From assembly GCA_004193555.1 (NCBI GenBank), contig RPGP01000040.1, positions 191,127 through 255,126 on the forward strand: a DNA stretch of 64,000 nucleotides, written 5' to 3'. The translations under genes and the position numbers were made by a program. Source of the DNA: Desulfobacteraceae bacterium Eth-SRB1. Lineage in GTDB: Bacteria > Desulfobacterota > Desulfobacteria > Desulfobacterales > ETH-SRB1. Positions within the stretch are counted from its first letter, which is position 1; each line of letters begins with the position of its first letter. A model generated the notes under the pieces. That model did not search any database and was not told the DNA's origin. It saw nothing but the letters and a program-made list of their open reading frames with translations. This document shows positions 8,063 through 63,456 of this stretch, in pieces.

Positions 8063-8262
8063 AGGGGACGCTGGTTACTTGTTAACTTGTTTTAACTAAA
8101 TCCCATAAATGTTGATTTCTATCAATTAGTTTTATTGGACAGGATTTACGGGATTTTACAGGATTTTGTTTTGTTATTTTTTCCCCTGCCCGGACGGCAG
8201 GCAAATGAACAATCGGCTGCGCCGAAAAGAGAAACTCGAGTGGAAGTTCGAGAATTCTCAGG
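8063..8262. repeat. Repeat R copy
   Basis: GGGGACGCTGGTTACTTG through ATCAATTAGTTTTATTGG, the ACAGGATT block and a terminal hairpin region with CGGCTGCGCCGAAAAG. The middle carries a TTTTCCCCTGCCCGGACGG segment shared with 31130-31310. Confidence 0.8.
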
Positions 8263-60268: not shown

Positions 60269-60331
60269 ATTTTAACGTTTCAACTTTATCTCTTTTGGCT
60301 TTTTTTCGCGAAGCAATGACTATTTTTTAAT

Positions 60332-61278
60332 TTATAGTAGTTTGTCAAAATATTCAATAGTCTTTTTCAGTCCCTGGTCCAGCTTTACTGCCGGCTGCCA
60401 TTTAAGTTTTTCTTTAGCAAGGCTGATGTCAGGCCGGCGCTGCATGGGATCATCCTGAGGCAACGGTTTAAAGATAATCTTTGATTTTGAACCTGTAATT
60501 TCCATGATCTTTTGGGCCAGCTCAAGGATAGTAAATTCATCAGGATTGCCCATGTTTACGGGACCGATAAAATCGTCCGGCCCGTTCATCATCCGCACGA
60601 AACCTTCTATCAGATCATCCACATAACAGAACGAACGTGTCTGGATTCCATCGCCAAAAACCGTTATGTCCTGATTCGTAAGGGCCTGCACAATAAAATT
60701 GGAAACAACGCGTCCGTCATTCGGGTGCATGCGCGGGCCGTATGTGTTAAATAGCCTGACGACTTTGATTTTCAGATTGTGCTGGCGATAGTAATCGAAA
60801 AAAAGGGTCTCAGCGCACCTTTTGCCCTCGTCATAGCAGGACCTCGGCCCTATGGGTTTACCCTGCCCCAGTAGGTTTCCGGCTGGGGGTGAACATCCGG
60901 GTCTCCGTAAACTTCGCTTGTGGATGCCTGTAATATCCTGGCCTTAACCCGCTTGGCCAAGCCCAACATATTGATAGCCCCATGCACGCTGGTCTTTGTG
61001 GTCTGAACAGGATCAAACTGATAATGAACGGGAGAGGCAGGACAGGCAAGATTATAAATTTCATCCACCTCGAGGTAAAGAGGAAATGTTATGTCATGAC
61101 GGATAAATTCAAAATTCGGCTTATCTAAAAGATGAAAGATATTTTTTCTGGAGCCGGTAAAACAGTTGTCCACGCACAACACCTCGAAACCTTCGGCAAC
61201 AAGCCGTTCGCAAAGATGAGAGCCAAGAAAGCCGGCGCCGCCGGTTATTAATACGCGTTTGTTTTGATGATATTCCAT
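60332..61278 (-). pseudogene. UDP-glucuronate decarboxylase (UXS-type), one frameshift
   Basis: The N-terminal frame has [16 protein letters not shown] and [20 protein letters not shown]; it stops at RVNP. One base further the frame continues [19 protein letters not shown] (Tyr/Lys of YxxxK), [19 protein letters not shown] and [16 protein letters not shown] to the end. It would convert UDP-GlcA to UDP-xylose. The missing base lies near 60853-60858 (AACCCATAGGG). Confidence 0.88.
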
Positions 61279-61367
61279 AAAAATCCTTTTTTTTTATTAG
61301 CCACAGACACACACAGACACACACAGATATTTTTCTTGGGTAATAACTAAAGCCTTTTAATCCTTAA
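61279..61367. repeat. CACAGACACACA array, 3' flank of GxxExxY gene
   Basis: TTAGCCACAGACACACACAG and ACACACACAG at 61296-61326. It is the inverse of the array at 61843-61873. Confidence 0.85.
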
Positions 61368-61730
61368 TTACATTATAAATCGTTTAATAACTGCTTTTGG
61401 AAATGTGAAATTTACAAGCAAACCAACCTTCATTCCTGTAGCTTTCAAGTAATTCAACATCTGTGCCTCATGAATTTTTTGTAATTTATCAACTGCCTTT
61501 AGTTCAATTATCACCCTGTCTTCAACAACAATATCGGCAAAATACTCTCCGACATTTTTACCCTTGTACTTCACAGAAATCGGGAATTGACTTACGGCTT
61601 TAATTCCCCTTAAATGCAACTCCATAATTAAGGCGTTCTCATAAACTTTTTCGAGGAATCCAGCGCCCAGCAATTTGCTAACTTCGAATATCGCACCATT
61701 TATCTGGTATGTAAGCTCATTAATATCCAT
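61368..61730 (-). CDS. GxxExxY-family protein
   Basis: 120 residues: GAGFLEKVYENALIMEL carries GxxExxY; YFADIVVEDRVIIELKAVDK is the nuclease-like core. Complete. It lies between inverted CACAGA-type arrays and between two sugar-nucleotide genes, as if inserted just after the stop of the dehydrogenase. Confidence 0.9.
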   Translation of the reverse strand: MDINELTYQINGAIFEVSKLLGAGFLEKVYENALIMELHLRGIKAVSQFPISVKYKGKNVGEYFADIVVEDRVIIELKAVDKLQKIHEAQMLNYLKATGMKVGLLVNFTFPKAVIKRFIM

Positions 61731-61739
61731 ATTCCTTCA

Positions 61740-61873
61740 TCTTTGCCACAGACTCACACAGAAACACACTAACGAAATAACATTGGTTTTTTTTCGCGAA
61801 GCAATGACTATTTTTGTCCAGCGACATCCGCTGGGCAAAATTCTGTGTCCGTCCGTGTGTGTCTGTGGCTAAT
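61740..61873. repeat. CACAGA-type arrays, 5' flank of GxxExxY gene
   Basis: GCCACAGACTCACACAG at 61744, then TGTGTCCGTCCGTGTGTGTC and TGTGGCTAAT at 61844-61873. The right edge abuts the dehydrogenase stop codon. TTTTTCGCGAAGCAATGAC at 61792 recurs at 60303. Confidence 0.82.
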
Positions 61874-63254
61874 TTATTTAAAATGTGTTAATGCTGGTTT
61901 GCCGATTGAGTAAACATTGAATCCGATTTTAAAAAGTTTGTTCCGGTCGATAATATTTCTGCCGTCAAAGATAAAGGCAGGCTTTACCATTGATTTGTAT
62001 ATTTTTTTCATAATCAAGGCCCCTGTACAATTCCCATTCCGTCATTATTGCGATTGCATGACTTCCGGAGGCTGCTTCATAAGGATTATCGATATAGCTT
62101 ACATTTTCGTCGATTCCTTTTAGATCGATTCCTGCGTTCTTTAATGCCTTTGGATCGGTAATTGTCAGGTGCGCTCTTTCCTCAATTAATCTCTTTGCAA
62201 TATAAATGGCCGGACTCTCCCTTGTGTCTCCGGTGTTGGCCTTGAAAGCAAAGCCAAAAAGGGTTATTTTCTTGCCTGCCAATGTGTTGAACATGGCTGA
62301 GAGCATGTTGGACACAAAACGATCCTTTTGAAAATCATTTATTTTGAGAACATGGTTCCAGTAGTCAGCGACTTCATTAAGGCCCTGATACCGGCACATA
62401 TATACAAGATTCAAAATATCCTTTTTAAAACATGATCCACCAAACCCGATGCTTGCGTTCAGGAATTTATCGCCGATCCTGCTGTCAAATCCCACTGCTC
62501 TGGCTACATTGGTAATATCGGCGCCGGTCTTCTCACACAGGGCGGATATGGCATTTATTGATGATATTCTCTGGGCCAGGAATGCATTGGCCACGAGTTT
62601 GGAAAGTTCACTGCTCCAGATGTCGGATGTAATAATCAGGTCACGCGGCACCCAGTTGGCATATATTTCAACCAGCTCGTCTCTTGCTTTTAAACCGCTT
62701 TGCGTTTGACGGGAACCGACGAGCACACGATCAGGATTTTCCAGATCGTTGATGGCCGTTCCTTCAGATAAAAATTCAGGATTGGAAAGAACCTCAAAAT
62801 GAAGATTATTGTTTGAAGTCAGGATTCTCTCCATGGCGAGGGCGGTTTTGACAGGAAGCGTGCTCTTTTCTACAATGATTTTTGGGGACTGAGAATACTG
62901 TAGAATCTGCCTTGCGGTCTTTTCCCAATACTGCAAATCAGCAGCCATGCCCGCGCCGACGCCAAAGGTCTTTGTAGGAGTGTTTACGCTGACAAAAATA
63001 ATGTCGGACTCTATTATGCCATGCTGTATATTACTGCTGAAGAAAAGATTTCTTCCCCGAGCCTTTTTTACAATCTCATCAAGGCCCGGTTCATAAACCG
63101 GCAGGTCATTTGAATTCCATTCATCAATGCGTACTGGGTTGATGTCCACAACCGTGACTTTGTATTGCGGGCATTTATAAGCAATCATCGCCATTGTCGG
63201 CCCGCCCACGTAACCTGCGCCTATGCAAAGGATGTTTTTTTTAAATTTTTTCAT
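61874..63254 (-). CDS. ugd: UDP-glucose 6-dehydrogenase, frameshift near C-terminus
   Basis: Main frame 429 residues ending at 61965: ILCIGAGYVGGPTMAMIAYK (NAD), VEKSTLPVKTA, FLSEGTAINDLENPDRVLVG, and the catalytic Cys in NASIGFGGSCFKKDI. It is of the eukaryote-like subtype. At a T7 run (62002-62008) the other frame gives KPAFIFDGRNIIDRNKLFKI, then NVYSIGKPALTHFK-stop at 61874, the normal end. It makes UDP-glucuronate for the decarboxylase downstream. The break leaves the catalytic part whole. Confidence 0.92.
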
Positions 63255-63275
63255 TTTTAATTAAGTGTTGACGGT

Positions 63276-63418
63276 CTCGTAAAAAGTCGTCACTCCGGTG
63301 AAAACCGGAGTCCAGATGTTCTGTAACTACTTGAAAAGACTGGATAGCGCTAAAGCTTCACTATGTGCCCGGCTTTCGCCGGAATGACGGAAAACGGTAT
63401 TTTTCGACTTTTTACGAG
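63276..63418. repeat. 143-bp repeat with CTCGTAAAAAGTCG inverted ends
   Basis: CTCGTAAAAAGTCG (63276-63289) and CGACTTTTTACGAG (63405-63418) are exact complements. Inside are the hairpins CTCCGGTGAAAACCGGAG and CCGGCTTTCGCCGG. It is a MITE-like or terminator-like element between ugd and the ComEA-like gene. Confidence 0.85.
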
Positions 63419-63456
63419 TGCATCAAGTGTTAGATGAATAAAAAAAAACAGAAAAC

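Follow-up and report, generated by a model that had tools for sequence, protein, structure and literature searches.

GxxExxY genes between matched inverted short-repeat arrays: a probable small element widespread in bacteria and archaea

GxxExxY genes of bacteria and archaea recur between paired inverted arrays of short repeats, and gene and arrays together very probably constitute a widespread element of ~500 bp, in which one gene is bounded by matched inverted arrays of 9- to 10-bp units. The joint reading that best fits the evidence, with a probability of roughly 0.55, is a selfish element whose nuclease would act on its own self-complementary ends. The element from which the analysis starts lies in the window, the 64,000-nucleotide stretch of contig RPGP01000040.1 of Desulfobacteraceae bacterium Eth-SRB1 (the source genome), where a GxxExxY gene is placed between ugd and a uxs-type gene. 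The features of this locus are as follows:

61296 to 61332, + strand: left (3') inverted array, TTAGCC followed by CACAGACACA units of 10 bp
61368 to 61730, - strand: GxxExxY gene, 120 aa, predicted PD-(D/E)XK nuclease of Cas4/RecB-like fold (TIGR04256/PF13366, AF2 model)
61742 to 61769, + strand: third array, directly 5' of the GxxExxY gene, oriented like the left array and complementary to the right array
61787 to 61836, no strand: spacer within the 5' hairpin, containing TTTTTCGCGAAGCAATGACT (repeat search)
61837 to 61873, - strand: right (5') inverted array (window comparison and unit search)
61874 to 61876, - strand: ugd stop codon as set by homologues; the called ORF (61965 to 63254) breaks frame earlier

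The gene matches the profiles TIGR04256 (E value of 3.4e-43; 146.7 bits against a cutoff of 35) and PF13366 (PDDEXK_3; E value of 6e-42; 143.1 bits against a cutoff of 22). A sequence-only reading had placed it between inverted short-repeat arrays, and these are real: the arms are 37 nt each, are 86% complementary, and score 26.5 in the inverted-arm test (threshold of 14). The arrays proposed there, 61296 to 61326 and 61843 to 61873, are indeed reverse complements, but their extents fell short (to 61332 on the left and from 61837 on the right) and the third array was missed. All five copies of CACAGACNCACACAGA found in the window at ≤2 mismatches lie inside these arrays (0.02 expected from shuffles), and the ends of the element pair when it is folded as single-stranded DNA with DNA parameters (z = -6.35 against 100 shuffles). 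The third array matches the left array directly at 89% and is 79% complementary to the right array, so that the 5' flank can itself fold as a small hairpin with the right array. The right array had also been said to end at the ugd stop codon. It immediately adjoins the stop at 61874 to 61876, which homologues reach in another frame, but the stop of the called ugd ORF is at 61965, with a frame break between; this early end is either a sequence error or real. Comparison with the gene at the same site in a related genome (G005; 119 codons) gave a dN of 0.032 and a dS of 0.295, and the gene at the window site is under purifying selection (dN/dS of ~0.11).

The called ugd ORF is shorter than the open frames of most homologues (~460 aa), the remainder being in another frame. 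The uxs-type gene (60332 to 61278) is present as two ORFs (60332 to 60730 and 60850 to 61278), which suggests a frame break. TTTTTCGCGAAGCAATGACT is another small dispersed repeat; it occurs twice in the window (60302 to 60321 and 61790 to 61809), and related text is found inside the array hairpins L030 and L171. The spacer of the gene-less hairpin L030 resembles that of the window 5' hairpin. Upstream of ugd, a long palindrome unrelated to the arrays (AAAAAGTCG .. CGACTTTTT) was seen by eye at 63261 to 63425. Several ACAGGATTTT arrays (9 to 10 bp) stand among small ORFs at 8139 to 31230, and the same unit stands as direct repeats beside another GxxExxY gene of the source genome (L005).

The survey of GxxExxY genes for inverted flanks that the sequence-only reading had suggested bears the pattern out. 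Of 80 named loci spread over archaea and many bacterial phyla, 74 are usable, and 65 of these reach an inverted-arm score of ≥14, versus 9 of 1,011 shifted positions taken from those loci; direct repeats are also enriched (24/74 versus 23/1,011). In an enlarged set of bacterial and archaeal loci, matched inverted arrays are present at 95 of 116 usable loci (of 122), versus none of 20 usable ndk control loci (21 of 22 loci entered). Detectable arms were not found at about one in five of the usable GxxExxY loci (21/116), and these relatives with the gene but without arrays weaken a strict rule, but the association stands. The arm-to-arm span has a median of 504 bp (10th to 90th percentile, 442 to 600 bp), and 75 of 91 elements have a 5' arm that is A-rich in the CCACAGAT sense.

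The 122 loci comprise all 80 named loci, five of 10 source-genome matches (excluding fragments and remnants), 20 of 29 loci from the genome search (excluding five fragments and four loci close to contig ends), and 17 of 30 later loci. The threshold is reached by 24 of these 30. Ten of the 13 left out duplicate loci of the set, and two are tandem copies of L152; the last, L278, is positive. L064 and L127 are one sequence, counted twice. Six more GxxExxY loci stand outside the count, with inverted scores of 8.0, 9.5, 9.0, 16.5, 16.5, and 14.0; three copies on G003:C32 lack arms (scores of 8.0 to 9.5 against the threshold of 14), and the copies on G030:C99 have arms of another kind than short-unit arrays. 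In the source genome, GxxExxY is present as fragments and at five full-length loci. Inverted arrays, not uniform in sequence, were seen by eye at L002, L003, L006, and the remnant L008; L005 has direct arrays and L004 is ambiguous by eye, both being under the inverted-arm threshold. Spread by plasmid or phage was considered and rejected, as GxxExxY was matched in 8 of 72,556 plasmid records and 0 of 50,697 phage records (one query), and a second plasmid query returned the organisms of the same eight records. Arms are present at three of the six plasmid loci fetched from these eight records, a count made without a control.

Gene plus arms behave as a single unit. The unit sequence varies between elements (CACAGAC, CACGGAT, CGCAGAG, CACGAAG, ACAGGATT, and others), but in 81 of 91 elements no foreign arm matches better than an arm's own partner does (median of 22 versus 5.5 for foreign partners). 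When arms were compared between elements, counting loci that have arms and whose match frame is open, a similarity of ≥16 was reached by 10 of 11 pairs whose proteins share ≥75% identity (one pair being a duplicate), by 8 of 28 pairs at 65 to 75% identity, and by 84 of 3,789 pairs below 65% identity. Arms are thus alike mainly between close proteins, which argues that gene and arms are inherited together, with the arms changing in concert.

The sequence-only reading had further proposed that the layout copies that of cassettes with four-helix (S23/Avd-type) genes. In the source and related genomes, PF05635 genes do have inverted arms, at 31 of 34 usable loci versus 2 of 89 shifted positions, and their own partner arm is best in 28 of 28 elements; the unit length, however, is specific to each family. 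The best-fitting unit length is 9 or 10 with GxxExxY (67 of 88) and 7 or 14 with four-helix genes (23 of 28). The four-helix set consists of eight of 16 source-genome loci and 26 of 28 new loci, fragments and one short-flank locus being left out. On plasmids, arms are present at 11 of 12 four-helix loci fetched from 44 records (10 of the 12 cyanobacterial; no control entered this count), with a unit of 7 or 14 in nine of the 11, and one match is annotated as Avd. An exception is L211, where the units beside the four-helix gene are longer and the ends are GTAACTACT. Because the best-fitting unit length differs by protein family, the GxxExxY and four-helix elements look like two related classes, and a mechanism common to both is plausible. 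On cyanobacterial plasmids, four four-helix genes (L399, L400, L404, and L408) separate the subunit genes of ribonucleotide reductase, cas6 from cas4 (twice), and cas10 from a Cmr3-family gene.

By its modeled fold and its D..ExK residues, the window protein is a predicted Cas4/RecB-like PD-(D/E)XK nuclease. The AF2 model (pLDDT of 97) has the PD-(D/E)XK nuclease fold, and its best structural neighbor is the Cas4 protein SSO0001 (Z score of 10.0; root mean square deviation of 2.9 over 97 residues), followed by a restriction-endonuclease-like protein (Z score of 8.5) and archaeal Hjc, whose Z score of 7.7 is rated as common by the search tool. All 62 members share D66 and E76, and K78, Q90, and Y94 are conserved at ≥90%; the Q..Y spacing of GxxExxY resembles the RecB/Cas4 motif. 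Cas4b profiles match 20 of the 62 members (best E value of 2.3e-5). For the window protein itself, no Cas4 profile match was found at an E value of 0.01, and a sequence search of solved structures returned nothing below an E value of 0.15. The iron-sulfur cluster of Cas4 needs cysteines, and the window protein has none and therefore does not carry that cluster. GxxExxY thus shares the PD-(D/E)XK fold and D..ExK residues with Cas4, lambda exonuclease, and archaeal Hjc but differs from them as a 120-aa protein without cysteine that stands alone between repeat arms. The neighbors of the window gene are ugd and uxs rather than the CRISPR context of Cas4.

The elements occupy boundaries between genes, break down into internal-deletion remnants and hairpins without a gene, are dispersed, and are polymorphic between related genomes. 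GxxExxY matches were found in 26 of 38 genomes searched, with up to 20 per genome, many of them fragments. The window array type occurs at 61 sites across the source genome (≤2 mismatches; control, 16), including the gene-less hairpins L030, L042, and L049, and further copies of a locus's own array were found in 15 of 35 named loci of ≥12 kb (31 copies, versus 0 for reversed arms). Named insertions are tight between genes (e.g., fabD-GxxExxY-fabG), and several arms abut stop codons. Geobacter sp. L1geo carries one intact element in triplicate, all inside 2.9 kb. Copy 1 shares 96.9% identity with copy 3 and 96.2% with copy 2 over just 472 to 480 nt, its homology stopping 12 nt beyond the 5' arm and 26 nt beyond the 3' arm; copies 2 and 3 have a longer common stretch (609 nt, 94.6%).

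Thirteen ugd loci, including that of the source genome, were compared. G005 has the same CACAGAC element as the window between ugd and uxs, G003 has a CACAGAC element with a second, alpha element (described below) nested inside, and G014 and G001 have CACGAAG elements containing gene remnants. A lone arm remains in G004 and G011, another palindrome is present in G002 and G016, and G024 (order level) has one CACAGAC arm plus a 7-bp array. In G026 (order level), no array or element was seen at this site. Downstream of ugd, G008 has neither uxs nor an element, and the G007 contig stops. On the 5' side of ugd, G001 has an intact CACGAAG-type GxxExxY element and G007 has a CGCAGAG-type arm together with a 3' portion of a GxxExxY gene. 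L066 and L062 (58% identical) were rejected as a pair from this 5' position, L062 being another G007 copy ~3 kb away.

A subfamily, alpha, has sharp ends with termini GTAACTATTCAGCC and contains GxxExxY remnants and 10-bp arrays. It has the hallmarks of a transposon or MITE: sharp terminal inverted repeats, target duplication, and empty sites. Alpha matches number at least 50 in the source genome, at least 36 in G001, at least 27 in G003, at least 22 in G008, and at least 18 in G005, each end being counted as one match where the middle is lost. For each of six source-genome copies, one relative or more has a match to the joined flanks that spans the junction. Five of the six were aligned; a duplicated target relative to the empty site is seen for L289, L291, and L292 and is not clear in the alignment for L290 and L294. 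Among 35 alpha end pairs (spans of ~110 to 360 bp, including alternative pairings at one locus), an exact 8-bp duplication occurs in four (null, 0.7%) and a score of ≥5 in 14 (null, 7.1%). For gene-bearing GxxExxY elements, an 8-mer duplication with ≤1 mismatch is in weak excess (7/90; null of 2.3, maximum of 4.1), and L057 and L072, which have GTAA-type ends, match at seven of eight positions. Four-helix elements lack such a signal (1/28 versus a null of 0.6).

An 8-bp target duplication is typical of IS66. The alpha termini GTAACTATTCAGCC and the related GTAACCGTTCACG resemble the start of an IS66 terminal repeat of the source genome (GTAAGCGCTCA..), and termini of this GTAA..TTCA type occur on GxxExxY, four-helix, and gene-less elements. 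They bound both sides at 2 of 122 GxxExxY loci and 3 of 34 four-helix loci, all in the source bacterial family. The IS66 transposase domain PF03050 was matched in 6 of 15 genomes and was not matched in 5 of the 10 alpha-bearing genomes covered (G001, G004, G005, G007, and G008; drafts). Of 14 control genomes, that of E. coli gave no GxxExxY match but did match IS66. The source genome also has 209 GTAACYRTTCASS sites at ≤1 mismatch (control, 35), which apparently belong to many small elements whose ends are IS66-like.

A scan for GTAA pairs covered the sample of loci apart from the 80 named ones rather than whole genomes. A transposase between widely spaced GTAA termini was rejected, as 41 of 51 inverted pairs in this limited sample are 100 to 499 bp apart. 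Long GTAA-bounded pairs with a large ORF were likewise rejected as transposase units, their contents being ordinary host genes, and an apparent flanking palindrome at L205 and L208 is best taken as the same end of an element seen twice. Upstream of ndk, the source genome has alpha and its sister G001 a different array (L238/L237); the G001 array has an apparent four-helix C terminus, and a terminal CTGAATAACTAC and flank are common to it and the alpha site. At L009, a GxxExxY fragment lies inside a 387-aa open frame, with an alpha right end close by.

How such elements move can be read in several ways. Because the arm sequence is free while the pairing is kept, the nuclease may act on arm structure, a putative role that we put forward tentatively. 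The nuclease would recognize the folded self-complementary ends more by structure than by sequence and would cut there, driving spread, and repair that copies one arm from its partner would keep the arms alike. The main rival, at least for alpha, is mobilization in trans, in which a DDE transposase, probably an IS66-like one in the source family, would move MITE-like units with arms plus gene as cargo, and GxxExxY would have another role in mobility or none. The IS66-like alpha termini and the 8-bp target duplication speak for it, as does G008, which has alpha ends and no GxxExxY match. Furthermore, since GTAA..TTCA termini bound four-helix elements too, besides GxxExxY and gene-less ones, a factor in trans is indicated. 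As an account of the elements in general it is nevertheless unlikely: PF03050 is unmatched in half of the alpha-bearing drafts covered, IS66-like termini stand on both sides of just 2 of 122 GxxExxY loci, and the pairing of arms and gene in very distant hosts is left unexplained.

Two further accounts are improbable. The transcript might fold via its arms and then undergo copying or splicing at the RNA level, a reverse transcriptase possibly taking part. Kinship of the four-helix elements with Avd/S23, including the plasmid match annotated as Avd, might point to such an enzyme, the ends of the window element pair when folded (with DNA parameters), and, in the accessible text of PMC4990558, a 23S rRNA insert of Coxiella combines an S23p ORF with a 28-bp stem and heptamers; the best structural neighbors of GxxExxY, however, are DNA nucleases, and the 8-bp alpha target duplications point to a staggered DNA cut. 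Alternatively, regulatory or terminator hairpins dispersed long ago may have been domesticated, with a host nuclease kept beside them in the manner of single-copy RAYTs. Such a history has a precedent in REPINs and RAYTs (PMC3116915, as far as its accessible text goes) and would suit both the arms next to stop codons and the purifying selection at the window site (dN/dS of ~0.11), but the many fragments among up to 20 matches per genome look like continuing turnover, relatives hold different elements at one site, and insertions separate neighbors such as fabD and fabG. Arrays common in these genomes could in principle flank a gene by accident, as the 61 sites of the window array (control, 16) might suggest, but such a chance origin is contradicted by the shifted positions (9/1,011), the ndk loci (0/20), the reversed-arm control, and the match of each arm to its own partner, and its probability is practically nil. 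The selfish element with a nuclease that would act on its own ends thus remains the preferred reading.

Alpha resembles IS66-type MITEs in its terminal repeat GTAACTATTCAGCC, 8-bp target duplication, and length of ~110 to 360 bp but differs in its GxxExxY remnants and 10-bp arrays, and most GxxExxY loci are without such termini. Dispersed heptamer arrays are known in cyanobacteria as STRR. GGGAATC heptamer arrays of Xanthomonas are mostly intergenic and often form inverted pairs (PMC4692102), and TAACTGA heptamer arrays of Beggiatoaceae are dispersed and mostly intergenic (PMC4679880); in the accessible text of these two papers no link to a gene family was found, whereas here heptamer arrays are the arms of four-helix genes. 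GxxExxY elements are extragenic inverted doublets able to fold as hairpins, as REPINs are, and the likeness to the REPIN/RAYT system in the accessible text of PMC3116915 extends to intergenic dispersal, lone-arm remnants, an associated gene, and tandem clusters. They differ in that the gene lies between the arms, encodes a predicted PD-(D/E)XK nuclease rather than a Y1 (HUH) transposase, and is often multicopy, and in that the arms are short-unit arrays varying from element to element.

The intervening sequences of 23S rRNA, according to the accessible text of PMC4990558, are likewise small selfish elements with one ORF and terminal inverted repeats. In that of Coxiella, an S23p ORF is accompanied by adjacent heptamer repeats, and the terminal inverted repeats build a 28-bp stem, so that the adjacency of heptamers and S23p in Coxiella is already in print. 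GxxExxY elements differ from these inserts in being intergenic, with a nuclease gene and 9- to 10-bp units; the window element lies between ugd and uxs, and its ORF is GxxExxY rather than S23p. The four-helix elements are nearer kin of the 23S rRNA intervening sequences than the GxxExxY elements are. In the literature searched, as far as its texts were accessible, mentions of GxxExxY do not concern gene flanks, no assigned role for these proteins (named after a motif) was found, and no general link of GxxExxY or four-helix genes to arrays appears, including in PMC8934634 and PMC12085832. Six array sequences had no match in the same literature.

The GxxExxY and four-helix elements may, as a tentative generalization that we hold a little short of even odds, represent a prokaryote-wide class of mobile elements whose ends are defined by self-complementarity and unit period rather than by sequence and whose unit length is fixed by the core protein family. 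Units of ~10 bp would then belong to the PD-(D/E)XK GxxExxY proteins and units of 7 bp to the four-helix S23/Avd-type proteins, with the sequence drifting in both arms together; such coupling of unit length to a protein family while the sequence drifts is unusual. The heptamer arrays of cyanobacteria, Xanthomonas, and Beggiatoaceae would be arms or remnants of the four-helix class, and S23p-bearing rRNA intervening sequences would be its insertions in rRNA. If GxxExxY is the core gene of an element across bacterial phyla and archaea, the family gains a context, dispersed 9- to 10-bp arrays would gain an origin, and heptamer arrays next to four-helix genes could be explained along parallel lines.
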